Shown: in pieces, positions 14,390-42,597 of the stretch
Layout of the letters: each line of letters starts with the position of its first letter
How positions within the stretch are numbered: position 1 is the stretch's first letter
DNA from: Planctomycetota bacterium
GTDB taxonomy: Bacteria; Planctomycetota; Phycisphaerae; Phycisphaerales; Phycisphaeraceae
Assembly (NCBI GenBank): GCA_016350165.1
Contig: CP066225.1
Span: 4,402,001 to 4,466,000 of the forward strand
Direction: 5' to 3'
DNA: 64,000 bases
Notes under the pieces: generated by a model
What the model saw: only the letters and a program-made list of their open reading frames with translations
What the model was told of the DNA's origin: nothing
Database searches by the model: none
Program-made: the position numbers and the translations under genes

Positions 14390-15409
14390 ATGCCATCAGT
14401 TCGAGAAATTGCCAAGCATTCTGGCGTGTCTATCAGCACAGTCTCTAGGGTTCTCAATAATCACAAAGACATCGCTCCAGAGACACGCCAAAAAGTTCTC
14501 TTCGCCGCCAATGAGATTGGTTACAAGCCCGCTTCTCAAAAAGCTGTCGACAGCAAGCTCATTGGCCTCGTTTATTTCTCCAGTCAGTATGATCAGCAGA
14601 TCGGAGCTTATGACGCCACCCTCATCAACGGCATCATGAAGGGCCTCAAAGAAATGAAATACGATCTTGCGATCGTCGATATATCGCAAGACAAGTCGCC
14701 CGATGAAACATACACGCAGTTTTTTCATCGTAAGCAGCTTCACGGTGTCATCCTCAGGACCACACCAGAATCAAAACACTTGGCCGAAGCTATTGCCAAC
14801 GAAGGTTTCACATCTGTCGTCGCATCAGACCGATTTGAACATCCAAACGTTAACTACATTGGTTATGATTCATCATCAGACAGTAAACGTGCAATCGCAT
14901 ATCTTATCAATCTCGGACACCGTCGCATCGCGCTCGGCATCTGTAATACAATGACCGACGACCACATTGATCGTTACGAAGCCTATTGTTCAGCATTAAG
15001 CGAAAACGATATCGAACTTGATGACTCACTCGTCATTCGTCTCATCTCAGATATTAAAAGCGGCGAATCAGCAGTCAATCAGTTAATGGCATTGCCTGAT
15101 CCTCCTACAGCAATTTACTTCACCAATCCGCTTTCAACCTTAGGCGGCTTGCGTCGTGCACACGAACTCGGCATCAACGTTCCTAATGATCTTTCCATCA
15201 TCGGCTTCGACGATTCAGATGCCCGTCACATGGCTTATCCAATTTTTACTGCAGTGTGTCAGGACGCAGAGGACATCGGTTTCCGCTCCGCTCATTGGCT
15301 GACACATCACCTTAATAGAACAGGTGTTCCTAAAAAACTGCGTGAAGCTAAATCAACTGTATTTGAAGTTAATCAAACAACAGCGCCGCCGCGCAAAGCA
15401 AAACCATAA
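14390..15409 (+). CDS. LacI-family transcriptional regulator
   Basis: 339 aa. Residues 1-58 are the LacI DNA-binding domain with hinge helix (REIAKHSGVSISTVSRVLNNH, then ETRQKVLFAANEIGYKP). Residues ~60-325 are the periplasmic-binding-protein-like effector domain (LIGLVYFSSQYDQQ, GVILRTTPESKHLAEAI, GHRRIALGI, LSIIGFDDSDARHMAYP). GAGGT lies about 7 bases before the ATG. It is divergent from the GH1 beta-glucosidase, its most likely target, with an oligosaccharide or monosaccharide effector that cannot be predicted. It could also be one of the candidates for the TCGGAG-NN-CTCCGA regulon seen further right. Confidence 0.93.
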   Translation: MPSVREIAKHSGVSISTVSRVLNNHKDIAPETRQKVLFAANEIGYKPASQKAVDSKLIGLVYFSSQYDQQIGAYDATLINGIMKGLKEMKYDLAIVDISQDKSPDETYTQFFHRKQLHGVILRTTPESKHLAEAIANEGFTSVVASDRFEHPNVNYIGYDSSSDSKRAIAYLINLGHRRIALGICNTMTDDHIDRYEAYCSALSENDIELDDSLVIRLISDIKSGESAVNQLMALPDPPTAIYFTNPLSTLGGLRRAHELGINVPNDLSIIGFDDSDARHMAYPIFTAVCQDAEDIGFRSAHWLTHHLNRTGVPKKLREAKSTVFEVNQTTAPPRKAKP

Positions 15410-15474: not shown

Positions 15475-16536
15475 TCATTTCACTGTAGCAACCGATTCGC
15501 GTTCCATCAGTGAAGGCTTAATCTGAATCGTCTGTGCTTTCTTACGTGGTTTATCCATCCGTTCAAGCAGCAGTTTCACAGCTTCCTTCGCTTGTTGTTC
15601 CAGATGTGTATTCATCGTTGTAATCGGCGGCATCACATGCGCACTCTCCGGCAAATCGTCGTGACCCATAATCGACACTTCATCAGGCACACGAACCTTC
15701 GCCTTCGCAAAAGCTGTCGTCGCAGTAATCGCTAGCTGGTCATTGTGACAGAACACAGCCGTCGGACGCTCATTCTTACTTGCATTCAACCATTTCTCGA
15801 CGTACTTATTCGTCACAGCCTGCTGGCTATCATAGTCGTCCTGCTCAGGGCCAAGCATCGTCCAGTCTTCGTCATACAAACCCTTCGCATTCAATGTATC
15901 CGTAATCCCAGCAATCCGAGATTCATGTGTACGCTGACTCACTTCAGGTGCGCCCAAATACCCAATACGTGTATGACCATGCTTAATCAAATACTTCGCA
16001 ATCGTTGTACCCGCTTCATATTCATCAAGCGTGATCGAGTCCATCTTATCGATCTTGTCACCAATTGCGATGATAGGCACGTGGCGAATGCTCGCAGGCA
16101 GATTACTCAAATCATTATGCACAGAGAAAACCGGTGCAATGATCAATCCATCAATACGGTCCGCCGCCAAATGATGAAACTGCTTACGCTCAATCTCTTC
16201 ATCATTCTCAGTCACAGCCAATTGCAAACGGAAATGCATCCGCCTCAATTCGCGTTCAATGTAATACGTTAACCTCGCCCAATATGAGTTGCGGAAGTCA
16301 CGTGTCAGCATCAAACCCACAAGCCTCGAAGAACCACTCGCAAGCGACTGTGCCGCACGTACAGGTGCATAGCCAAGCTTCTCAGCCGCTTCCAGTGCAC
16401 GCTTACGTGTATCTTCACTGTAATTGTCACCCGTTCCACGGTTGACAATATCAGAAACAGTCGTGCGCGCAAGCCCCGCTGCCTTCGCAACTTCTTCTAA
16501 CGTAACACGTTTTTTCGATTTCGATTGATAACTCAT
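15475..16536 (-). CDS. LacI-family transcriptional regulator next to GH95/GH2 genes
   Basis: 353 aa from the ATG at 16536; an in-frame TTG five codons upstream is less likely. The N-terminus is basic (KSKKRV) and leads into the LacI HTH (TLEEVAKAAGLARTTVSDIVNRGTG) and hinge (DTRKRALEAAEKLGYAPVRAAQSLASGSS). The effector domain has GLMLTRDFRNSYWARL, HGHTRIGYLGAPEVSQR, PTAVFCHNDQLAI and SIMGHDDLPESAHVMPPITTM. It lies immediately downstream of the GH95 fucosidase on the same strand but has its own operator-like inverted repeat, so it can be made separately. It is the leading candidate in this window to bind the TCGGAG-NN-CTCCGA sites, by position only. Confidence 0.93.
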   Translation of the reverse strand: MSYQSKSKKRVTLEEVAKAAGLARTTVSDIVNRGTGDNYSEDTRKRALEAAEKLGYAPVRAAQSLASGSSRLVGLMLTRDFRNSYWARLTYYIERELRRMHFRLQLAVTENDEEIERKQFHHLAADRIDGLIIAPVFSVHNDLSNLPASIRHVPIIAIGDKIDKMDSITLDEYEAGTTIAKYLIKHGHTRIGYLGAPEVSQRTHESRIAGITDTLNAKGLYDEDWTMLGPEQDDYDSQQAVTNKYVEKWLNASKNERPTAVFCHNDQLAITATTAFAKAKVRVPDEVSIMGHDDLPESAHVMPPITTMNTHLEQQAKEAVKLLLERMDKPRKKAQTIQIKPSLMERESVATVK

Positions 16537-16567
16537 AAGTCTCGTTTTCAAATCATGATATATGACC

Positions 16568-22603: not shown

Positions 22604-22648
22604 TCGGAGGGCTCCGAATATTTTAATTCGTGATGTTTTAGCCGTCAA
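22604..22648 (-). promoter_or_regulatory. Promoter with TCGGAG-NN-CTCCGA operator for the GH2 gene
   Basis: Read on the minus strand there is a -35 box TTGACG (22648-22643), a 17-bp spacer and a -10 box TAAAAT (22625-22620). Two bases later comes the inverted repeat TCGGAG-CC-CTCCGA (22617-22604), so the repeat covers the expected transcription start. This is the classical position for a repressor. The same arrangement recurs at the symporter and beta-helix genes. The leader to the GH2 ATG would be ~180 bases. Confidence 0.8.
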
Positions 22649-23208: not shown

Positions 23209-23254
23209 TTGACGGGCATAATTGTCCAGTTTACAATGCATCGGAGGGCTCCGA
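23209..23254 (+). promoter_or_regulatory. Promoter with TCGGAG-NN-CTCCGA operator for the symporter gene
   Basis: A -35 box TTGACG (23209-23214), 17-bp spacer and -10 box TACAAT (23232-23237) are followed three bases later by TCGGAG-GG-CTCCGA (23241-23254). The repeat overlaps the expected transcription start, as at the GH2 gene. The leader to the symporter ATG would be ~105 bases. The upstream part of this 920-base intergenic region holds the GH2 promoter and the 30-bp repeats; a 160-codon open frame here is judged non-coding. Confidence 0.82.
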
Positions 23255-27779: not shown

Positions 27780-30569
27780 TTAGTGCTTGGCTGGGAGTTT
27801 TGAGTTGGTGATTGCGAAATCTTCGACGTAGTATTTGGTTTGATTGTCGATGGTGATTTCGATCACAGCGCGATAGGTGGTGTTGTCGAGGCGGGTGTGG
27901 TCGTTAATCATGCCATCCCATGTGAATGAGTTATTGGTTGTGGCTGGGAACTGGGCGAGGAGTTTTTGGTTTGTGTCGTAGATGCGGACTTGTGGTTTGG
28001 TTGAGGAGGATGGGAAGTTAACAGTGAAGTTGTAGTGGAACCCAAGATCATTGGTTGGGATGTTGATTGCGCCGCGTGAACGTGCGGTTGGTGGGAGAGG
28101 GTTGCCGAGTGCGTCGTAGTTGTTGTTGCGGTTGTATTGTGCGGTGATGGGGGTTGCGCCGATGGTGATTGTGTTATCTGCGTTGATTGCATCGGAGAGT
28201 GAATCGAAGGTGTTGAGCGAGGGTGAGAATGCGGTGATGAGTGGTTTAATACGAGAAATATAGATGTTTTTGCCATCAACTTCCTTAGTTGGATCGTCGA
28301 GCCCTTCTTCGTTGTAGATGTTTTCGATGAGTGGTTTGATATTGCGGATTGTGTTGATGTCTTTGAAGACGTGGTTGTGTGAATTGATTGAATCATAGAT
28401 TTCGTTGCCATCACCTTGACCGAAGAATGAGTTGGATTTGAAGTCGCCTTCACGTGTGTAATCGTTTGAGGCTTGCACGTTGTCGTCTATATAGATGAGG
28501 TTGTTGTAGATGATGGCGGTGTTTGATTGTGATTGGAGGGCGACAGGTTTGAGGTCGTATGGTTTGTACATACGATCTTTGTTGGCGATGTAGATTGTGT
28601 TGTTGTAGATGCCTGTGGTGTAGGATTTAGTTTTGTCGTAGTCGATGGATCGGATGACTGCGTTGTTGACGCCGGGGAATAGGACGTCGTTTGCGGAGAT
28701 GTTGTAACGCATGAGGTCTGAGTGTGAGCCGCCTGAGAGCATGGTGACGATACCGGCGTGATTGTTGTATGAGAGGTTGTATTGGACTTGGCAGTTGACG
28801 GTTTCGTGGTCGAAGTCGAAAGCTTGGCCGGAGAAGCCGTAGACGTCGCCGACGACGTTGAATTGTGAAGTGCAGTTGATGCTACGGAAGGTTGTGATGC
28901 CTGCGTTGTCATGGATGCGGCCGAGTCCGATGCGACGAATGAGGTTGTATTCTGCGAGAGAATCGGTGCACATGGCGAATGAGAAAGCGTCATTGGTTGA
29001 GTCTTCTAAGTAGTTGCCACGGATGACGACGTTGGTGTGATTGACTTGATGACGGAGACGTGGGTGTTTACGGAAGTCGGAGTAGAGTCCAACGCCTTGG
29101 ATGTCGCAACGCTCGAAACGGTTGTTTTCGATGAGGATATCGTGGAAGCGTGTAATGTTTTGATCGGGGATATCTTTGAGGCCAGTGAGTGATTTTGCGT
29201 TGAATGAGATGGCGGAGCGAGGCATGCGCGTTTTGGTAGCGATGTTGTTGACGTCATGGAAGAAGCAGTTGCGAACGGTGAATCCGCGTTGGTCACCTGA
29301 GCCTTCTTCGGCGATGGCGAGGATGCCTGCAAAGTAGCCACGACGACGGCCTTGATTTGAGATTTCGAGGTTGGTGAATTTGTAGTGTGAGGAATTGCGG
29401 ATGGTGAATGTGCCCATGTTGTTGTTGATGCCGTTGCCTTGGATGTGTGGGCGTGGGCCGGAGCCGTAGGATGAGATGATGATGGGGTTGTTGGCTGTGC
29501 CGGAGCCTGAGAGGACGAGGTTGCCGGTGTAAGTGTTGCCACGTTTGAAGAGGATTTTGTCGCCGGGGGCGAGGGTGAGGGTTGATATTTTGTATAGGGA
29601 TTTAAAGGGTTTTTGAGATGTGAGGCCTGAGTTGCTGTCGTTGCCGAGGGATGAGTCGATGTAGTATGTTGTGTTGCCGGGGGAGAGGGTGAGGGCAGGG
29701 GTGGTGATGGTTGTAGATGAGGAAGCGGCGGATTCTGAGGAGTCGTTGATGGCAGTGACGGAGTATGTGTAGGTTTGTTCGGAATTGACGGTGTAGTCTA
29801 AGTATGAGTTAGACGGAGTGTTGATGGGTGAGTCGATGATGACGGTGCGTGGTTTGGTGTTGTCTGAGGTTCGTGTGATGCGGTAGCCGGTGGCATTGGT
29901 GATTTTTGGCCAAGTGATTTGTGTGGTACGTGCGCCGATGGCGGTAACTGTTGGTTTTGAAGGTGGAGTGATGGCAGTAGTTTTTTGTGTGGTGAATGAA
30001 AGATGGTCAACGTTCATATACCAACGCGTCTCGTTGTATGCATTGGTTGTGTCGACGGGCATTTTTAACCAAATGCGTGCTTGCGTAACGTTATCGGGGA
30101 ATGTGAAATCAGCTTGTTTTGTAGTGAATTCAGTGTCGTCTTGTGTGAATGATATGAGGGGGATGATTTTAGTTGTGTTGTCGGCGAAGTGGAGTTCGAT
30201 AGAGGCGTTGCCAGAGTGTTGGGTGTTGGGGCCATTTTTTCTGGCGACTCGGGCGGTGATGGCGAGTGTCCATGAAGAACCTGCTGATGGGACAGGTGAG
30301 AGGAATTGGCATGCACCAGCGAAGTAACCGGGCTGTTTTTCGTTGACGATTTGGCCTTGTGGGAATCCGACTTGAAGGATGTGGTTGTCGGATGCGGTTT
30401 TGTCTTCTAGATATTTTAGTGCAGGGTTGGCACGGTAGTTCCAGTGCTTGACTTTCTGGGTGAAGTCATGGTTTTGGATTCGGTTTTGTGATTGAGCGAA
30501 GAGAGTTGATGGGGCGATGCAAGAAGTGAATATGGAAGTTAATAATAAAAATCTTTTGGTTTTATTCAT
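27780..30569 (-). CDS. Secreted right-handed beta-helix protein, putative polysaccharide lyase/glycosidase
   Basis: 929 aa from the ATG at 30569; the frame is open 29 codons further up, but the signal peptide (MNKTKRFLLLTSIF, ending TLFAQ) fits this start. Residues ~25-190 look like a carbohydrate-binding beta-sandwich (NHDFTQKVKHWNYRANP). Residues ~200-290 are a fibronectin type III domain (PPSKPTVTAIGARTTQITWPKITNATGYRI). From ~300 comes the entry motif of parallel beta-helix enzymes (YYIDSSLGNDSNSGLTSQKPFKSL, then ILFKRGNTYTGNLVLSG) and many N-x-x-x-N helix coils. A C-terminal beta domain ends the protein. This fold includes polysaccharide lyases and GH141-like enzymes; the catalytic class cannot be fixed by eye. 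Its promoter carries the shared operator. Confidence 0.82.
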   Translation of the reverse strand: MNKTKRFLLLTSIFTSCIAPSTLFAQSQNRIQNHDFTQKVKHWNYRANPALKYLEDKTASDNHILQVGFPQGQIVNEKQPGYFAGACQFLSPVPSAGSSWTLAITARVARKNGPNTQHSGNASIELHFADNTTKIIPLISFTQDDTEFTTKQADFTFPDNVTQARIWLKMPVDTTNAYNETRWYMNVDHLSFTTQKTTAITPPSKPTVTAIGARTTQITWPKITNATGYRITRTSDNTKPRTVIIDSPINTPSNSYLDYTVNSEQTYTYSVTAINDSSESAASSSTTITTPALTLSPGNTTYYIDSSLGNDSNSGLTSQKPFKSLYKISTLTLAPGDKILFKRGNTYTGNLVLSGSGTANNPIIISSYGSGPRPHIQGNGINNNMGTFTIRNSSHYKFTNLEISNQGRRRGYFAGILAIAEEGSGDQRGFTVRNCFFHDVNNIATKTRMPRSAISFNAKSLTGLKDIPDQNITRFHDILIENNRFERCDIQGVGLYSDFRKHPRLRHQVNHTNVVIRGNYLEDSTNDAFSFAMCTDSLAEYNLIRRIGLGRIHDNAGITTFRSINCTSQFNVVGDVYGFSGQAFDFDHETVNCQVQYNLSYNNHAGIVTMLSGGSHSDLMRYNISANDVLFPGVNNAVIRSIDYDKTKSYTTGIYNNTIYIANKDRMYKPYDLKPVALQSQSNTAIIYNNLIYIDDNVQASNDYTREGDFKSNSFFGQGDGNEIYDSINSHNHVFKDINTIRNIKPLIENIYNEEGLDDPTKEVDGKNIYISRIKPLITAFSPSLNTFDSLSDAINADNTITIGATPITAQYNRNNNYDALGNPLPPTARSRGAINIPTNDLGFHYNFTVNFPSSSTKPQVRIYDTNQKLLAQFPATTNNSFTWDGMINDHTRLDNTTYRAVIEITIDNQTKYYVEDFAITNSKLPAKH

Positions 30570-30685
30570 TGTTGTTGCCTTTGCTATCGGTTGTGTTTGC
30601 GTTGCGATTAGTGGGAAAAGTGTGTTTTTGAAGAAAAATCGCAATGTGCCTTGCATGGGAGTGATAGTTGTGTTAATCTATGCAA

Positions 30686-30730
30686 TCGGAACGCTCCGAT
30701 AAATTTAACGAGAGTTGAATTCTAAGTCAA
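30686..30730 (-). promoter_or_regulatory. Promoter with operator for the beta-helix gene
   Basis: On the minus strand: -35 TTGACT (30730-30725), 17-bp spacer, -10 TAAATT (30707-30702), two bases, then TCGGAGCGTTCCGA (30699-30686). The arrangement is the same as at the GH2 and symporter promoters. The leader to the ATG at 30569 would be ~125 bases. Confidence 0.78.
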
Positions 30731-30862
30731 TAGAAATATATGTAGAGTTGAGTGGTTTGAATTGGAGCGTTGATGTGATCAAGGGATGCAGGTCATGAGA
30801 CAAGGCTATTGTACGGAATCATATGATTGATGAAGTAAGTATGAAAATGGCCTGTATTTAAC

Positions 30863-30891
30863 TTGGAAAATAGAATCTTGTACTTTAAAAT
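30863..30891 (+). promoter_or_regulatory. Promoter candidate for the prepilin-like gene
   Basis: TTGGAA (30863-30868), a 17-bp spacer and TAAAAT (30886-30891) make a good sigma70 pattern. Transcription would start near 30898, giving a ~115-base leader. The leader contains a small hairpin, ATTCGT (30964-30969) / ACGAAT (30975-30980). The matching operator is not here but inside the gene. Confidence 0.5.
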
Positions 30892-31013
30892 GTGACCCGG
30901 ATTTCTGATGTTTGGGTTATCTTTGAGATGTATCAGGTCATATCAAGAACGAAGCGATATCTAATTCGTTCGTGACGAATCGCGAGTAACCTATTGTTTG
31001 GAGTCTTAAGAAA

Positions 31014-31880
31014 ATGGAAAGTCAGATCTTATTTGAGAAAAAGTCGGAGCGTTCCGAGTATCAGAAAAGAGCTTTCACCTTAATTGAACTTCTCGTAGTC
31101 ATTTCAATTATTGCGTTACTGATTGGGATTTTATTGCCTGCATTGGGTGCTGCTCGTCAGACGGCACAGGCAATGGTTTGTTTGAGTAATCAGCGTCAAA
31201 TGGCAACATCGATGTATACGTATGCTGTTGATAATAAGGCGTTGTATGTTCCTGCATCAGAGATGCTTCGTGAAGGTGGGATTAAAGGTACTGATAACAG
31301 AACGAGGCCTTGGAATCGTTTGCTTTCATGGGCGGGCGTGGTTTCATATGACTACAACTTAGGGCTTGAGGTATTTTCGTGTCCGACAGATGATGCTGTT
31401 ATAGCACAGATGGAGGAAGGCGCGGAGAGCCGAAAGAGTATGATAGATGAACCTAAGGCTGCGGAAGCATGGGCTGCTGGTTCATGGACATCGTATGGTT
31501 ATAACTACAACAACTTGGGTCGCAGTATTCGTTATGAAACTGATAGTAAGTTGAAGCAATTACCTGCGAAGATTGATGCTATTAGAAATCCAAGTGGAAC
31601 ACTTGCGATTAGTGATGCAGCTGGTAATGCCGATTCAGATGTAATGAATGCATCATATGTTGAGGATTACTGGTGGGATCGTCGTCCATCACCTTATGCC
31701 CGCCACCGTGGTGCAACATTAAACATTGGCTATGCAGATGGTCATAGTGCTTCATTTACGCATCCAGATCCTGAAGATCGTTCAGCGATTTATGATGCGG
31801 ATGCACTGGGTTATGTTCACTCAGTTGGTGGTAAGTGGCCGATTGACAGGTCGGCGGATAATGGTGTTTGGGATCGTTAA
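31014..31880 (+). CDS. Prepilin-like protein with H-x-DG type C-terminal motif
   Basis: 288 aa. The N-terminus is a type IV prepilin signal, [25 protein letters not shown] split as a charged leader (residues 1-21), a cleavage site before F with Ala at -1, the +5 glutamate, and a hydrophobic helix. The globular part ends with [18 protein letters not shown], the H-x(9-10)-DGH motif of the large planctomycete/lentisphaeral DUF1559-like pseudopilin family. A GGAG lies 9-10 bases before the ATG. It is not in the type II secretion operon; it sits among polysaccharide genes and carries a regulon operator inside codons 11-15 (encoding SERSE). Role unknown: pseudopilins of this kind might be minor parts of a surface appendage or secretion apparatus for glycan binding. 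Confidence 0.85.
31044..31057 (+). promoter_or_regulatory. Intragenic copy of the shared operator
   Basis: TCGGAGCGTTCCGA, the exact reverse complement of the copy at 30686-30699, lies 30 bases into the prepilin-like coding sequence. Centre-to-centre distance to the upstream copy is 358 bases. At this position a bound repressor could block elongation or loop to the other site. Confidence 0.7.
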
Positions 31881-31992: not shown

Positions 31993-32066
31993 AGTAGTGT
32001 GGGGTGGACGTCGTCATTGTGTTTGTTAGTCATTGCGTAGCAAATGAAGGTAATCAGGAAGAAACG

Positions 32067-35000
32067 ATGAAAAAGAGCGTGAGTTTAGCATGTTATGTTG
32101 GATTGATGATTGGTGCTTTCGAGGTAAATGTGCATGCGGATGGTGAGCGTAGCGAGTTATCGCATATTGATGCGAGTGTGTATCCGTATCTGCACCGGCC
32201 TGAGCGATATCCTGATTACAAGTTTAGACCAACGCCGCCACCAACGTGGAAGACGTTTAATGGGCGTATGGAATTACGTACATCCGATTCGTTTGACATG
32301 AATGGTCAGGCGAGAACAATCATGGTTCGCCAGATTGTAAATAAGAATAATGATGAGCGTGTTGCAGATGTATTGGTTGATGGAAAGGTGATGCGTGTTG
32401 AGGAAGAGACGTTATTGCCTGCGGGGAATTATTCTAAGTTTTTGAAGTTTATGAATGAGTGGGATGATGAAGGTGGGATGTTAAGGTTGGCAGGGTACAA
32501 GATTTTTCGTGTGCCTGAGATTGATAAACAGAATTTCAATCGGATGGTTGGTATGGAAGGGTCATTCGCAGGTATTGCAAATGACATGTATGGAATTTTG
32601 GGCGATCGATATTTGGGGATGCAATTTGGTGAGTCGGATGCATCGTATTTAAATTTGTCGCCATACTATATATTCCCATCGCCAAGAACGAAGTTGGGTA
32701 ATTATTGGCCGTTCCATGATTACTTTGCTGATTATGGTGATAATGTTGGCAACCGCGTGATGGTACACAATAACAATTTGTGGCATCACTATACTGCAAG
32801 AGAAGGGATTGTGACGGCAGTTGAGGGGCAGAATTTTGTTAGAAATGACGGATTTATTCGCTTGCATAATGCGTTTATGCGTGGTGCAGGTAAGCAATAT
32901 GGTGTGTTGTGGTCGGGTGGATTTTCAGCTGAAACAACGTGGGGGATCAGGCAGCATTTTAGTGAGGCTTGTCAAGACGAATTGAAAGAATTGGTTGCGG
33001 CAGATAAGAAGCGTGTGACGGATTATTCGCAGTTGCCGCCGATGGATTTGGCGCGTCGTCGTCGTAACTGGTCTGGGCCTCGATGTGGTGATTTAAAGGG
33101 TGCGCCGTTGAGCTTTATTCGTCGATTGTTTTATACGTTGTATATGAACAATGCGAGTCATGCGATATGGGAAGTTTCAATGACACATGAGTTTGTGTCG
33201 TCAGACGAGAAGATTTCCAAGTTGTCGCCGGTCGGTCATTTTTATAATTCGATTTCATCGTTTATGAATAAGCATGGTGATCCGGGTGTGATGCAAACAC
33301 CTGTGGCGATGATGTTAGATTTTAATGCAGGTTGGCGTGCACCGCGTAGTCGTAATCCGAAGTTGGTGTCACGTAATGGTGTACAGTATTATTCTTGGCC
33401 GACATTGAAGTATGAACGTGGTGACTACCTGACGTATAACATTTTGGATGTATTCTTTCCAGGGTTTATAAATAGTAGTAAGTTTACATCACTTGAATAT
33501 GCATTGACGGATACGCCTTATGGTGAGATATGTGATGTATTATTGAGTGATGCGCAGTTGCCAGTGTTGCAGCGGTATCCGATGCTGATTGTGGGTGGTG
33601 ATTTACAGACGGATATCAAGTATTTACGTGGCAAGCTTGAAGCGTATGTTAAGCATGGCGGTAATCTAGTTTTGACTGGTGAGAATGCACGTAAGCTGTT
33701 CCCTGAGTGGGGAATTGTTGATCGTGGTGATAAGCTCGCTGGTGGTGAGAGTGTGGAATGGGGTGATGGTGAAGAGTTAGTTGAGCCGAATGATTTGCGA
33801 GTACTGCGAATTAATGCGATGCCAGAAGGCGGGAAAATAGTTGCAGAAAATGATGGAAGGGCGTTGCTTGTTGAAGTTCCAATGGGGCAGGGTATGGTGA
33901 CTGTTTCAATGACGCCGTATGGTATAAATCAACGGGTGCTACCAGTTGAGAAGCCTAAACTAGTGAAGAAGCAGGTTGGTGATGAAGTATTTGAAGAGAT
34001 TGATCGGAAGATTGGTCGACCGTTCTATTTGGCTGAGTCATTTAAAAAGTGCCTTGATTCTAAACTGAAAGATATTCGCTTATTTAATTTGTCTAACGAT
34101 CGATTAGCCTATGTGACAACACGTAAGGGTGAAGGTGAGTATTGGGTTTCTGTATTTAATGATCACTTGAATGAAGAGCCTTTTAAGATTGTTTCCCAGA
34201 TCGGCGAAGTGGCATCAATCGAAGAGATAGATCTTGAGGATGACTGGGTCAAGCAGGAAAAAGGTTATTATCCATATTGCTACCTAGATAATGATGGTGG
34301 TGAGTCGGATGAAGATTCGATTGCAGGTGGTGATACACGCATATTCAAGATTCGATTGAAGCGTGAGCTTGCAGAGGTGATGCCTGATTACAAGCCGAAT
34401 GCACGCCCGGTGAAGCGTTTGCTTGCATTGAAATATCTGCAGGGTTTGCGTCAGAAGATTGCGTTGTGGCCCAGCTTTTTCGAAGAGTTTGGTGGTGTGA
34501 AGGTAAGTGGTCAGGCATTACTTGATACCGATTTTATTGAGCAAGATGTGAAATGGATTAATCGTCGGGATGTTCAAATTCTTGTTGATGGTCGTGATAT
34601 CAGTCATGAGCTGAATATTCTTAGCTTGATAGACAAGATGGATGAGCTTGAGACAGCCAAGGTTCTGATTGTGAAAAATGTAAATAATTCAATCAGTTCG
34701 TATGCATCGAGTAAGGGTATAGCAGTTGTACCGAGTGATGTTGCAAATGAAAAGGTACGTCTGTTTGATCGTGATAATGCCAGCGTTGTAGATGAGAGGT
34801 TTGAAGGCATTGTCGTGATGAATATGGATTATGAGGTATGGGATGATATCTACCATGACATGCGTGTTGCAGCGGGTGAACTAGACGAGGTGGTTGTTGG
34901 TCGCGATATCAATCAAGGTAGAGATGCTGGTGATATGGTAGATGCGAAAAATGCTAAGCGCATGTTAGCATTACGTGGCATCGATGATTTTAAGAAGGCT

Positions 35001-35696
35001 GTACTTTCTCAGAATGAATTCTTTGAACGGTTTGGTGGTGTGACCATTGAAGCGAGATATTTGCGTCAAAGTGATGTACGTAAATTAATTCATGATAAAC
35101 AGTGGGCTGATGAGAAGGGAATTAAATTAGTTGTAGATTTTAGTTCTTCAATTAATGGGTATAAGGATATTACATTCCATACTGAAATGGGTGTGATTTA
35201 TCAGAGGGGTTTGAAGTATGCTGAGAATGTGCTGCAGAAGATGAATGTTCTTGGTTTGAACGATGCAATATTCATCACGCATGGTATGGGTGGGCAGCAT
35301 AAAGCAATTAATGATGGGTTTGTCGCGTTTTGTAATCTGGCAAAAGTGTATGGCGTTGACTTGCACTTGCGTAATTCTAATCGATTGACGACGAATAGTA
35401 TTGATAGGTTTATGAAGAAGTTTGAAGGTCGTGTAGATAATGTGACTTTAGCACCAAGTACGATTTCAGAACGTGATTTGTCGAAGCTCCTAGCTGTTGA
35501 AGCAGAGCCTGAATATGTTTTATTATCTTCATCAACGGAGATGGCAAGGTATAATACGCCTTTACCTTTGTCGGTGGCGAAAGGGCGACGTCAGGTTAAT
35601 ATAGAGCCACTTAAGAATGTTGATGCGTATGTGATTCTGGATGCAATTTACGTAAATGATGATGAGCTTGCAGATGATCTGGCATTGTTGCCTTGA
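32067..35696 (+). CDS. Large secreted protein of unknown family, paralogue A (putative glycan-active)
   Basis: 1209 aa from the ATG at 32067, which has AGGAAG upstream and begins a Sec signal peptide (ending near VHADG). I do not recognise the family. An N-terminal ~460 residues are rich in aromatic and acidic residues, with FGESDASYLNLS at ~residues 187-198 shared exactly with paralogue B. Residues ~480-550 (DTPYGEICDVLL, YPMLIVGG, LEAYVKHGGNLVLTG, LFPEWGI) resemble the class I glutamine-amidotransferase-like domain of GH42-type glycosidases. The C-terminal third holds two related units (starting ~780 and ~963): LALKYLQGLRQ...FFEEFGGV and LALRGIDDFKK...FFERFGGV, each followed by LVDGRDI / LVVDFSSS. 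A sulfatase gene follows after 54 bases. A role in degrading a sulfated polysaccharide is inferred from context. Confidence 0.8.
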   Translation: MKKSVSLACYVGLMIGAFEVNVHADGERSELSHIDASVYPYLHRPERYPDYKFRPTPPPTWKTFNGRMELRTSDSFDMNGQARTIMVRQIVNKNNDERVADVLVDGKVMRVEEETLLPAGNYSKFLKFMNEWDDEGGMLRLAGYKIFRVPEIDKQNFNRMVGMEGSFAGIANDMYGILGDRYLGMQFGESDASYLNLSPYYIFPSPRTKLGNYWPFHDYFADYGDNVGNRVMVHNNNLWHHYTAREGIVTAVEGQNFVRNDGFIRLHNAFMRGAGKQYGVLWSGGFSAETTWGIRQHFSEACQDELKELVAADKKRVTDYSQLPPMDLARRRRNWSGPRCGDLKGAPLSFIRRLFYTLYMNNASHAIWEVSMTHEFVSSDEKISKLSPVGHFYNSISSFMNKHGDPGVMQTPVAMMLDFNAGWRAPRSRNPKLVSRNGVQYYSWPTLKYERGDYLTYNILDVFFPGFINSSKFTSLEYALTDTPYGEICDVLLSDAQLPVLQRYPMLIVGGDLQTDIKYLRGKLEAYVKHGGNLVLTGENARKLFPEWGIVDRGDKLAGGESVEWGDGEELVEPNDLRVLRINAMPEGGKIVAENDGRALLVEVPMGQGMVTVSMTPYGINQRVLPVEKPKLVKKQVGDEVFEEIDRKIGRPFYLAESFKKCLDSKLKDIRLFNLSNDRLAYVTTRKGEGEYWVSVFNDHLNEEPFKIVSQIGEVASIEEIDLEDDWVKQEKGYYPYCYLDNDGGESDEDSIAGGDTRIFKIRLKRELAEVMPDYKPNARPVKRLLALKYLQGLRQKIALWPSFFEEFGGVKVSGQALLDTDFIEQDVKWINRRDVQILVDGRDISHELNILSLIDKMDELETAKVLIVKNVNNSISSYASSKGIAVVPSDVANEKVRLFDRDNASVVDERFEGIVVMNMDYEVWDDIYHDMRVAAGELDEVVVGRDINQGRDAGDMVDAKNAKRMLALRGIDDFKKAVLSQNEFFERFGGVTIEARYLRQSDVRKLIHDKQWADEKGIKLVVDFSSSINGYKDITFHTEMGVIYQRGLKYAENVLQKMNVLGLNDAIFITHGMGGQHKAINDGFVAFCNLAKVYGVDLHLRNSNRLTTNSIDRFMKKFEGRVDNVTLAPSTISERDLSKLLAVEAEPEYVLLSSSTEMARYNTPLPLSVAKGRRQVNIEPLKNVDAYVILDAIYVNDDELADDLALLP

Positions 35697-38962: not shown

Positions 38963-39019
38963 TCAGAGCGCTCCGAAAAAGGTTAGTATAGTATAAACGG
39001 AAGATATTGCTATATTCAA
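38963..39019 (-). promoter_or_regulatory. Probable sulfatase promoter with near-perfect operator
   Basis: The repeat at 38963-38976 reads TCAGAG-CG-CTCCGA on the plus strand, one change from the consensus. On the minus strand a -35 TTGAAT (39019-39014), 18-bp spacer and -10 TATACT (38995-38990) lie upstream, so the operator would fall just after the transcription start of the sulfatase. Being between divergent genes, it could also affect paralogue B, for which I see no clear promoter. Confidence 0.6.
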
Positions 39020-39054
39020 ATTCTAAGAATGTGTGAGTGTCAGGAGTTCATTTA

Positions 39055-42000
39055 ATGAGCAGGTTTGATCGAGCAAGTGTTCGTATAAAGGTCGGTGTTG
39101 TCGGGGCATTTGTGGGTGGGATAACTGCATTAATGAGTGCGATGGGTGTGGTGAATGGTGAGCCGACGGTTTATCCATTTTTGCATGAGCCGCGTGACTA
39201 TGTGGAGTATTACAGACGTGAGACACCACCGGTTTCGTGGGATGTGTTTGATGGCCAAATGAAGGTGAAGACGAAAATTGGCTTGAAGATGGATTACACT
39301 GGCGATGTGTTTTGCGGGCGTGTGATGAAAATTGAAGAATCATCACTGGCTAAAGAGGGACGTGTTGCTGAATTAGAAGAGCAAATGAAAGTGGCGAAAG
39401 AGGCGGGGTATTATGTACGCTTGGGTGGGTTTAAGGTTTATCGTGTGAAGGGGCTGGATTTACAAAATTTCAACGAACGTACTACATATGAAGATTCATA
39501 TGCGAAAGTAAGTCGTGAGCTATATGATATCTGGGGAGATCAATATTTTGGAATGCAGTTTGGTGAATCAGATGCATCGTACTTGAATTTATCAGGTTCG
39601 CATGTTTTTCCGTACAAGCGTACACGTGTTGGGCAGGCGATTGATTTTTTAGATCATTATCAATGGTATGGTGTGCATACGGGGAATCGTATTTTGGCGC
39701 ATCATAATGAAACGTTGTGGCCCTATGCATGTAATGACTCAGCTACGACAATGGGTGGTGCGCAAACATTTTATCGAGGCAATACAAACCCTCGCATTCA
39801 TTTCGCATTCTTCCGTGGCATGGGTAAACAGTACGGCTTGTTGTGGCAAGGTGGTGTGTCAGGGAATAATGTTTGGAAAAGTAAAGCTCATGAAGAGGAA
39901 TTGAGAGCAGAAATTAGAGCAGCAGGATTGCCTGTGGAGCCTTCTAAAGATGGGTTGTACCCACTAAAAATCAAAGGCAATCGGGCACGACGTAAGCTGT
40001 TTAACATGAATGAACTGAAGGGATGCAGTATTGGTATGCTTCGTCGTATGACTTATGCGATGTACTGCTGGAACGGCATGTTCATGGATTATGAAATAGG
40101 TGCTTTGGTTTGGGGAGCTCGGAATGAGGCGCCAAAGGTTTCGCCAACAGGGGATATGTTTAACAAGTTTGATAAATTTGTAAAAACATATGGTGGACCA
40201 GGTCCGATGGTTACGCCAGTCGCGTTTTTGACAGATTATTATGCTGGTTGGCGTGTACCTAATAAAGAAAGAAAACGAGAGATAGTATGGAATTGTTTGC
40301 CTTATGAAAATGGCGATTACATGCTATTGAATCTCTTTAATGTTGTTTATCCAAATCATTTCAATTTGCCGTTGCATGATAGTAAACGATATATGCTTCC
40401 GGATACGCCTTACGGTGATATTGTTGATGCTCTAACTCATGATGTACGGCAGGAAATATTGGATCGATATGGATTGGTTGTGATCGGTACGGAACTCAAA
40501 CACGATATCGAAACAACTCGTTTGAAGCTTGATCGTTTTGTTGAGCAGGGCGGGCAGGTTGTTATAACAGCGGCAAATGCTGCCAAGCTATATCCGGAGT
40601 GGGGAATAACTTCTCAGGTAAATAAAGTAAAATCAGGCAGTGTTATTGCTTGGCATGATGGTGTAAAAGATAAAGAAGCATATTCGTTTGACTTGATTAA
40701 TGCTTCATCAATTCCTGCTGACGCTAAAGTTCTTGCTGAAATCAATGGGCAAGTCGCAGCATTTGAAGTTATCAAAGGTGAAGGAAGTATTTCCTGTGTA
40801 CTTAGTCCGTATGGTCTGAATAATAAACGTCTGAAGATGAATTGGCCACCACGCAAGAAAGAGGTACAGCAAAAGAAGAAAGCTGCACTTGCATGGTTTA
40901 AAAATCTTAAGCCTTTAGGGTACACACATGAATTTTCGACGCTTATGCAGAAGGTTCTCGATGCGAAGTTAAGTGAGCAGCGGTTGTTTAGTGTAGGTGA
41001 AAAACTATCGCATATTGTCAATTATAAGGGTGAAAAAGAGTATTTGTTGACTATTATGAATGACACACTTGAAAGCCAACCTTTTGAGATTGTGTCGCAT
41101 ATCGGCAATGTCGAATCCATTCAAGAGATAGATCTTTTTGACGAATATCTGAAACAAAATCCAAGTTTCTTCCCATTTGGTTATCAAGATAATTTAAGGC
41201 AGCAAAACGATAATGAAGATTTTATTATGGGCAGTGATGTGCGTATTTTTGTTGTTAAGTTAAAAGCTGATACTTCACGAATATTACCTGAAATTGAATT
41301 AAAAGATAAACCAGAAAAACGCTTGATCGCAGTAAAAGGTATTAAATCCTTACGGCATCAATTAATGAAGTGGCCTTCTTACAAGCGATATCTCGAAGGT
41401 GTTAATCTTACAGGCCAAATGCTATTAGATACCAGTGATTCTTGGCTGTATGAAGAGGCGAAGATATTTAATCGTGAGAAGATTCGATTTGTTATTGATG
41501 CTCGCGATATTGTAGCTGTGAAGGACTTTAGAAATTTAATTAATAAGATGTCATACCTTGAAGGGGCGGAGGAAATTGTTGTAAATCGAATCAATGATTC
41601 TGTGAAAGTGTTACTCAACAATAATCGTATTCGAGTAATTGATGCAGGCAGTGATATTGTATTTGTTAGTAAAGCTGACCAGTTGCCAGCAGATGATTTT
41701 AGTGGTGATATTGTATTGAATTGCTTGTATGACAACTGGGATGATCTATATCACGATATTCGTATTGTTTGGGAAAATGATCTTACAGGACATCTACGCG
41801 GTGAGCAGGTTAGCTCGGAGAACGTTAGTAAAGCGGTTGTGAAGAAAGCAAATCAAAATCGTTTTATTAGCTTACGTGGTGATATTGAAGATCTTCAGAC
41901 AACAATTAAAGATACCGATCGTTTTTTCGAGCGTTTTGGCGGTATTAATCTAGATTCAAGGTATGTGTTTGCAAGCTCAATTGACAGAGTGAAAGCAGAT

Positions 42001-42597
42001 GCTGCATGGCTTAAAGAGAAAAAGATCAGTGTTGTCGTTGATTTTAGTATGGTCATGGACAACTACAAAGGTGTGACACTTCTTAAGCAGCAGCCATATC
42101 AGTATGAATGGGGTAAAAAGTATGCAAAGGACGTTTTTGAGAAAATGCATATTTTGGGAGCTAAGCAAGCTGTTTTCATGTTGATGAGTCGAGGCAAGAA
42201 TGATTTGGTACGCGACAGCCTAAGAGAGTTTTCGAAGATTGCTGTAAAGAATAATGTACAAATCACATTAAGAACACGTACAGGCTTGATGTATCGTAAG
42301 GCTGTTGAAGTTCTTGATTCATTGGGACAAAAAAATGTGAAAATTGCATGTTCAACAATGACAGATAAAGATCCTGTAGGTGTATATAAACAGGACAAGG
42401 GTAAAAATATTAGCATGATTTTATTGAGTAGTGCAGGTAAAGGTTTAGATAACATTATTACCTATCCTGTTTCTATGCAGATGAGTGGTGAGATCAATGT
42501 AAAAGAGCTGAGTAAGCAAAAGGTTATTCAAGTGCTTGATGGTGAGTATTTGAGTAATGATGAACTTGAGCGTGATCTTGAGTTTATGGGTTGGTGA
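39055..42597 (+). CDS. Large secreted protein of unknown family, paralogue B (putative glycan-active)
   Basis: 1180 aa from the ATG at 39055, eight bases after AGGAG; a GTG six codons earlier is less likely. A signal peptide/anchor covers ~residues 8-37 (IKVGVVGAFVGGITALMSAM). It is collinear with paralogue A: YPFLHEPRDYVEYYRRETPPVSW, MQFGESDASYLNLS (from residue 167), GKQYGLLWQGGVSG, DTPYGDIVDAL with YGLVVIGTEL and FVEQGGQVVITA (amidotransferase-like segment). The same duplicated C-terminal unit is present (starting ~754 and ~934: RLIAVKGIKSLRHQL...EGVNL and RFISLRGDIEDLQTT...FFERFGGINL). No family is recognised. It heads an apparent operon with a serine-type sulfatase (38 bases) and a GH29 fucosidase (16 bases), which supports action on a sulfated fucan. 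Confidence 0.8.
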   Translation: MSRFDRASVRIKVGVVGAFVGGITALMSAMGVVNGEPTVYPFLHEPRDYVEYYRRETPPVSWDVFDGQMKVKTKIGLKMDYTGDVFCGRVMKIEESSLAKEGRVAELEEQMKVAKEAGYYVRLGGFKVYRVKGLDLQNFNERTTYEDSYAKVSRELYDIWGDQYFGMQFGESDASYLNLSGSHVFPYKRTRVGQAIDFLDHYQWYGVHTGNRILAHHNETLWPYACNDSATTMGGAQTFYRGNTNPRIHFAFFRGMGKQYGLLWQGGVSGNNVWKSKAHEEELRAEIRAAGLPVEPSKDGLYPLKIKGNRARRKLFNMNELKGCSIGMLRRMTYAMYCWNGMFMDYEIGALVWGARNEAPKVSPTGDMFNKFDKFVKTYGGPGPMVTPVAFLTDYYAGWRVPNKERKREIVWNCLPYENGDYMLLNLFNVVYPNHFNLPLHDSKRYMLPDTPYGDIVDALTHDVRQEILDRYGLVVIGTELKHDIETTRLKLDRFVEQGGQVVITAANAAKLYPEWGITSQVNKVKSGSVIAWHDGVKDKEAYSFDLINASSIPADAKVLAEINGQVAAFEVIKGEGSISCVLSPYGLNNKRLKMNWPPRKKEVQQKKKAALAWFKNLKPLGYTHEFSTLMQKVLDAKLSEQRLFSVGEKLSHIVNYKGEKEYLLTIMNDTLESQPFEIVSHIGNVESIQEIDLFDEYLKQNPSFFPFGYQDNLRQQNDNEDFIMGSDVRIFVVKLKADTSRILPEIELKDKPEKRLIAVKGIKSLRHQLMKWPSYKRYLEGVNLTGQMLLDTSDSWLYEEAKIFNREKIRFVIDARDIVAVKDFRNLINKMSYLEGAEEIVVNRINDSVKVLLNNNRIRVIDAGSDIVFVSKADQLPADDFSGDIVLNCLYDNWDDLYHDIRIVWENDLTGHLRGEQVSSENVSKAVVKKANQNRFISLRGDIEDLQTTIKDTDRFFERFGGINLDSRYVFASSIDRVKADAAWLKEKKISVVVDFSMVMDNYKGVTLLKQQPYQYEWGKKYAKDVFEKMHILGAKQAVFMLMSRGKNDLVRDSLREFSKIAVKNNVQITLRTRTGLMYRKAVEVLDSLGQKNVKIACSTMTDKDPVGVYKQDKGKNISMILLSSAGKGLDNIITYPVSMQMSGEINVKELSKQKVIQVLDGEYLSNDELERDLEFMGW

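Follow-up and report, generated by a model that had tools for sequence, protein, structure and literature searches.

Introduction

In the gal operon of E. coli, one operator, OE, lies upstream and a second one, OI, lies inside galE. An operator in a coding region has also been described for PurR, another LacI-family protein, whose operator inside E. coli purB acts by a transcription roadblock (PMC4052901; PMC4132739); for LacI itself, roadblocks in vivo are a subject of PMC4132739, and PMC4052901 names the lac operator within lacZ, as far as the available text of the two papers goes. The survey of the LacI family gives, in its available part, less than 1% of the sites in coding regions (PMC4052901). 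The word planctomycet is absent from the main text of this survey, and a literature search for LacI control of planctomycete prepilin-like genes found none. Intragenic operators are known but rare, and what is described here is a variant placed in the codons of a leader.

Here we analyse a 14-mer that stands twice at a prepilin-like gene in the window, by which is meant the whole stretch of DNA of 64,000 nucleotides. As in purB, a predicted operator of the LacI-family type lies inside a coding region, while unlike in purB its place is a short way behind the start codon, among the codons of a secretion leader, and it is kept across a clade of paralogues, with the binding being predicted here. 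As in gal and lac, there are two operators, one of them in a gene, with a geometry in which looping is possible, while unlike in gal and lac the two are 358 bp apart across a divergent promoter region and the paralogues have no near partner site. Compared with the LacI-family sugar regulons in the available text of the survey (PMC4052901), the likeness is in an even palindrome mostly with a central CG, in its place before carbohydrate genes and in a lacI gene in the cluster; the difference is that here 4 of 18 near-start sites lie in the first 25 codons, against the less than 1% in coding regions given there.

The two copies of the 14-mer and their surroundings

The 14-mer TCGGAACGCTCCGA stands at 30686 and its reverse complement stands at 31044, as read from the sequence. 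The repeat search returns the same pair (I2) with arms of 14 nt, 100% complementary and with 344 nt between them, which bears out the preliminary description, where the second copy was said to be the exact reverse complement of the first. The features of the locus are as follows.

27780..30569, − strand: divergent gene, 929 aa when counted from ATG 30569, the start of a signal-peptide-like sequence; its longest ORF runs from 30656
30686..30699, − strand: operator-type site of the divergent gene, beginning 2 nt past TTGACT-17-TAAATT (30730-30702)
30702..30730, − strand: promoter-like pair TTGACT-17-TAAATT of the divergent gene, 9/12 of the consensus (consensus match only)
30762..30771, + strand: half-site TTGGAGCGTT from the half-site scan, possibly a weak third site between the two copies
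30863..30891, + strand: promoter-like pair TTGGAA-17-TAAAAT, possibly the promoter of the prepilin-like gene (consensus match only)
31014..31880, + strand: prepilin-like gene, 288 aa, with an N_methyl / TIGR02532 N terminus
31044..31057, + strand: intragenic operator-type site TCGGAGCGTTCCGA, codons 11-15 of the prepilin-like gene (from sequence, repeat search, genome counts and paralogue codons)

The ATG at 31014 is the sole in-frame ATG, GTG or TTG between the stop at 30987 and the FTLIE core at 31074. With the gene starting there, the second copy falls on codons 11-15 (S E R S E), as had been described before. The Pfam matches of the prepilin-like protein consist of the N-terminal methylation motif only, and its NCBIfam matches are pilin N termini, most of them below the cut-off. 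The divergent gene behind 30686 has a sole Pfam match, lying below its cut-off; neither Pfam nor NCBIfam bears out the earlier name of a beta-helix gene at E<=0.001.

Based on its position, the site at 30686 would overlap the transcription start of the divergent gene. Should the prepilin-like gene be transcribed from the pair at 30863-30891, its internal site would begin near +146. The earlier placement of this site about 150 bases past the transcription start is thus matched by a pair on the + strand, although this pair is one of six consensus promoter matches in 30500-31200, where shuffles give 2.2 +/- 1.8. Half-site matches with at most 1 mismatch on both strands of the 64 kb number 15, ten of which are the arms of five sites. 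Just 5' of the prepilin-like gene there is also an inverted repeat, ATTCGT-TCGTG-ACGAAT (window 30955-30990), which is possibly a second regulatory element.

Occurrence of the motif

Five copies with 0-1 mismatch are present in the window, at 22604, 23241, 30686, 31044 and 38963. With up to 3 mismatches, the window holds 8 matches versus 4.41 +/- 1.76 in shuffles, and 3 of 100 shuffles reach 8; this excess is modest and the loose count is weak alone, the signal being the five matches with 0-1 mismatch. In the genome as a whole (5.23 Mb, one contig), the pattern TCGGANCGNTCCGA is found 19 times at no more than 1 mismatch versus 4 times for the pattern reversed, while in the one same-genus genome compared (G001) the counts are 3 and 5. 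The excess of the motif is thus seen in this species and is absent from its neighbour. The three near-matches in the neighbour all lie inside open frames. Exact TCGGARCGYTCCGA occurs in 6 of 61 genomes, the own genome included; each of the other five has one copy, four of these lying inside long open frames and one, L088, in a 98-aa frame 145 bp before a longer frame.

Judged on mechanical ORFs, 14 of the 19 sites stand before genes, four lie in the first 25 codons and one (3287060) lies deep in a long frame. Of the four places of the reversed control, two fall within frames; the other two lie between frames, one being 12 bp before a gene. A further match at 1326788, with 2 mismatches to TCGGAGCGCTCCGA and deep in a frame, is outside the 19. 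The centre is CG in 17 of the 19 sites, a count that is partly by construction, the search pattern itself containing CG, and is GG in 22604 and 23241. A chance repeat is ruled out by the genome-wide excess together with the positions of the sites.

We also considered a mobile or terminator-like repeat as the main reading and rejected it: judged by eye, the sites have in common the 14-mer only, with no common flanks, and most of them stand before genes. The internal copy was scored terminator-like on the − strand, with a 5-pair stem followed by T-rich DNA.

Promoter positions here are sigma-70-like consensus matches, not mapped promoters. With this measure, the mean best promoter-like score of the 14 upstream sites is 8.3 of 12 versus 7.0 in shuffled upstream DNA, and at site 481666 a pair TTGACT-16-TTTAAT ends 7 nt before the site; several upstream sites score no better than the shuffles (4625602 with 6, 38963 with 7). 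The mean for the four internal sites is 6.75, versus 7.0. Many of the upstream sites look like ordinary repressor sites at a putative transcription start. The internal sites lie in coding sequence with no predicted promoter at the site, as would be the case for a roadblock operator of the purB kind.

Genes behind the sites

The other sites of the window are as follows.

22604..22617, − strand: site TCGGAGCCCTCCGA, 2 nt past TTGACG-17-TAAAAT, before a GH2-GH95-lacI run
23241..23254, + strand: site TCGGAGGGCTCCGA, 3 nt past TTGACG-17-TACAAT, before a sodium:solute symporter gene (23351)
38963..38976, + strand: site TCAGAGCGCTCCGA, before a large paralogue (39037/39055) of the 32004 gene

Nine target genes can be named by Pfam.

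Site 22604: GH2
Site 23241: SSF symporter
Site 1967152: GH95
Sites 2592121 and 1653778: sulfatases
Sites 3175602 and 2953340: GH97
Site 123130: sulfate permease
Site 4625602: sugar-type binding protein

Eight of these nine belong to the 14 upstream sites, and one GH97 gene has an internal site. By Pfam, the genes behind 8 of the 14 upstream sites share one metabolic theme, being glycosidases, sulfatases or transporters. Behind three of the 14 upstream sites stand genes for large proteins that have no Pfam family: no family was found at E<=0.001 for the gene at 32004 or for the large targets behind 38963, 481666 and 2223454. Two of these targets, those of 38963 and 481666, are paralogous to the window gene at 32004, with 34% and 33% identity. 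No glycan link is seen for the genes that follow two more upstream sites, namely 3462150, before a PEP-CTERM protein and with a helicase-like gene on its other side, and 3795255, before a 237-aa protein. The cluster in the window also holds two alpha-L-fucosidases (PF01120), GH95 and three sulfatases, and this gene content points to a sulfated, fucose-containing polysaccharide as the probable substrate. The preliminary description had taken the copies as operators, and the genome-wide sites before genes support operator-type sites that are part of a wider, predicted regulon.

Note also that the protein family of about 1200 aa without a Pfam match has three copies in the genome (window 32004-35696, window 39037-42597 and L018 1924-5391), and 60 other genomes gave a single weak relative at E<=1e-30.

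The candidate regulator

Two LacI genes stand in the cluster and link it to the regulon.

15475..16551, − strand: LacI-family regulator, prime candidate for the repressor by gene order, last in the GH2-GH95-lacI run
14390..15409, + strand: second LacI-family regulator, alternative candidate

The run behind site 22604 consists, on the same strand, of GH2 (22430-19098), GH95 (18981-16648) and lacI, with gaps of 116 and 96 bp on mechanical ORFs. The genome has 15 LacI-family genes by PF00356, eight of which are without a counterpart of at least 58% identity in the same-genus genome; both window genes are among these candidates, and the best match there of lacI 15475-16551 has 27% identity, the motif not being enriched in that genome. 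Because seven other LacI genes are likewise without a close counterpart, we infer, rather than assert, that lacI 15475-16551 is the likely regulator. Naming the regulator from the recognition helix was not possible, and eight candidates remain. No motif at up to 1 mismatch stands directly before either LacI gene of the window; in the LacI family, autoregulation is common (72% in the available text of PMC4052901).

The leader site and its paralogues

The genome has 62 codon matches to FTLIEL, of which 61 are prepilin-like, L052 being dropped since it has no leader. With the leader counted from the most upstream ATG within 40 codons, 3 of the 61 prepilin leaders contain the site and 58 do not; counted as the word at up to 2 mismatches in the 120 bases before FTLIE, it is present at 3 of the 62 places. 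The leader copy is thus no general motif of prepilin leaders. The three genes are the window gene, C1:1923744 and C1:1927746. The latter two are the nearest relatives of the window gene among the 40 of 90 candidates from the own genome that were scored, with 46% and 45% identity and 231 and 224 bits, the next best having 119 bits.

All three leaders of the clade spell TCG GAG CGy TCC (S-E-R-S). With the codon usage of 15 window genes, the chance of this spelling is 0.0024. There are 27 six-fold-degenerate residues that are identical in all three paralogues, and the codon is identical in three of them: 2 of 3 inside the site, Ser11 (TCG) and Ser14 (TCC), versus 1 of 24 elsewhere. The remaining one in the site, Arg13, is CGT, CGC and CGT, at a position that varies across the operator set too. 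Glu12 is GAG in all three; outside the site, 8 of 35 two-fold residues keep an identical codon. Conservation of the repeat at the DNA level beyond codon need, which had been put forward as the check on the earlier proposal, is therefore found in these three paralogues.

This conservation is that of one ancestral site kept by shared descent, not three independent events, and the local identity could also come from a short gene conversion. It may then be asked whether the site is a relic, inherited from the ancestral paralogue and with no present role in the window gene. The three prepilin genes being one clade is what such an origin would give; against it, the other conserved codons have diverged while those of the site stayed, and the window copy is the exact word, so that we regard a relic as quite improbable.

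Another reading is at the level of the protein: SERS would be retained because prepilin processing or secretion needs it, and the match in the DNA would be incidental. SERS is present in all three leaders, which also resemble each other just before it. This reading is set against the absence of the motif from 58 of the 61 prepilin leaders and against a codon conservation that exceeds the need of the residues. Moreover, the same DNA word is found at 14 places before genes and, with 1 mismatch, at the internal site of a GH97 gene (2953340, L027 5841-5854), where signal-peptide-like codons read it in another frame as R-S-V-P, which suggests that the DNA and not the peptide is the shared thing. 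A protein motif is thus very unlikely.

The palindrome could also work in the mRNA, as a hairpin near the start codon that tunes translation. A stem of 5 bp with a 4-nt loop is possible, and the fold predicted for the window gene contains it; the paralogue with a perfect 22-nt palindrome folds better than shuffles (z -2.11). By contrast, neither the window gene (z -0.19) nor the other paralogue (z 0.45) shows excess stability, the fold predicted for the latter lacks the hairpin, and most of the sites stand before genes; an RNA element has therefore a very small probability indeed.

In the paralogue at L016 10771-10792 (C1:1923770-1923791), the operator word is the core of the perfect 22-nt palindrome CTCTTCGGAGCGCTCCGAAGAG. 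The rule that prepilin leaders carry operators of other LacI proteins was tried on the 62 FTLIEL places and rejected, CG-centred palindromes being rare in leaders: with a cut-off of at least 6 of 7 pairs, below which the third clade gene (1927773) falls, they are in or near the leader in two of the three clade genes and in L032 at -48, the others lying farther upstream or downstream. At L064, different LacI-type palindromes, TGTAAACGCTTACA and TGTAAACGTTTTCA (C1:2700469, 2700636), stand upstream of a prepilin-like gene (2700362, −), which is flanked on both sides by lacI genes (2699215 and 2701918).

Outside the own genome, no orthologue of the clade was found: a sample of the class, made up of 396 other genomes, gave none at E<=1e-45, with 6 candidates scored per genome among those listed, and two peptide patterns gave none in the genome contigs, where the best identity was 30%.

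Proposed mechanism

We propose that the 14-mer is the operator of a LacI-family repressor of a fucose-polysaccharide regulon and that the site in the leader most likely acts as a roadblock, a reading to which we give a probability of about 0.64. In the model, which is drawn from sequence, the repressor would be responsive to a sugar and would control the genes for breakdown of a sulfated, fucose-containing polysaccharide; the repressor, its binding, the roadblock, the inducer and the substrate are all predicted, while the sites, their excess, their positions and the codon conservation are as observed above. At the upstream sites, which would lie at or just past the transcription start, including 30686 for the divergent gene, the bound repressor would block initiation. 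At the site in the leader codons, with no promoter there, the bound repressor would most likely be a roadblock to the elongating RNA polymerase. In the locus of the window, a tetramer could also bridge to 30686, strengthening the repression. In the presence of the sugar signal, the repressor would leave, and the pilin-like protein would be made together with the enzymes and the transporter.

Alternatively, a repression loop could be the main mechanism, with a tetrameric repressor bridging 30686 and 31044 in the manner of gal and lac, enclosing the prepilin promoter and silencing the divergent genes together. The two copies are perfect, and their spacing of 358 bp corresponds to 34.1 turns at 10.5 bp, which is approximately in helical phase, so a loop is possible in the window; the half-site at 30762 lies between the two copies. 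This is countered by the other three internal sites, those of the two paralogues and of the GH97 gene. These are kept, and with up to 3 mismatches allowed, neither 1 kb of upstream sequence nor 600 bases of downstream sequence holds another copy; a few matches near them have 4 mismatches. With no near partner at these three sites, a short loop is not the common mechanism, whereas a roadblock can be. Between the sites of the two paralogues, which stand 4.0 kb from each other, a long loop is possible. On balance we consider looping as the main mechanism to be rather unlikely, and the roadblock is retained for the leader site.

Implications

The link between LacI proteins and prepilin-like genes is wider than the present clade. 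In three genomes, 27 of 36 LacI genes have a prepilin-like gene no more than 3 kb away, versus about 2.3 expected at random places: 11 of 15 in the own genome (G000), 7 of 9 in G001 and 9 of 12 in G004, with 0.90, 0.57 and 0.80 expected, where rounded genome sizes are used for G001 and G004. The prepilin-like genes of these bacteria seem to be tied to sugar regulation generally, leader operators not being the rule. The prepilin-like protein of the window may be akin to the DUF1559 family (PF07596). In the available text of a Rhodopirellula paper (PMC2754498), this planctomycete family is described as solute-binding. A more general idea, which we put forward tentatively and hold to be possible rather than probable, is that in this lineage secretion leaders, both prepilin leaders and signal peptides, may host LacI-type operators, since their codons would tolerate the DNA word and a roadblock would need no room at a promoter, and that the many prepilin-like proteins of these bacteria may be sugar-specific surface parts tied to LacI.

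With the operator kept in the leader codons of the clade, one sequence would carry two codes at once. Moreover, the prepilin-like protein would be placed in a polysaccharide-utilisation regulon, and together with the linkage of LacI and prepilin-like genes, the role of many prepilin-like proteins in these bacteria would become testable.
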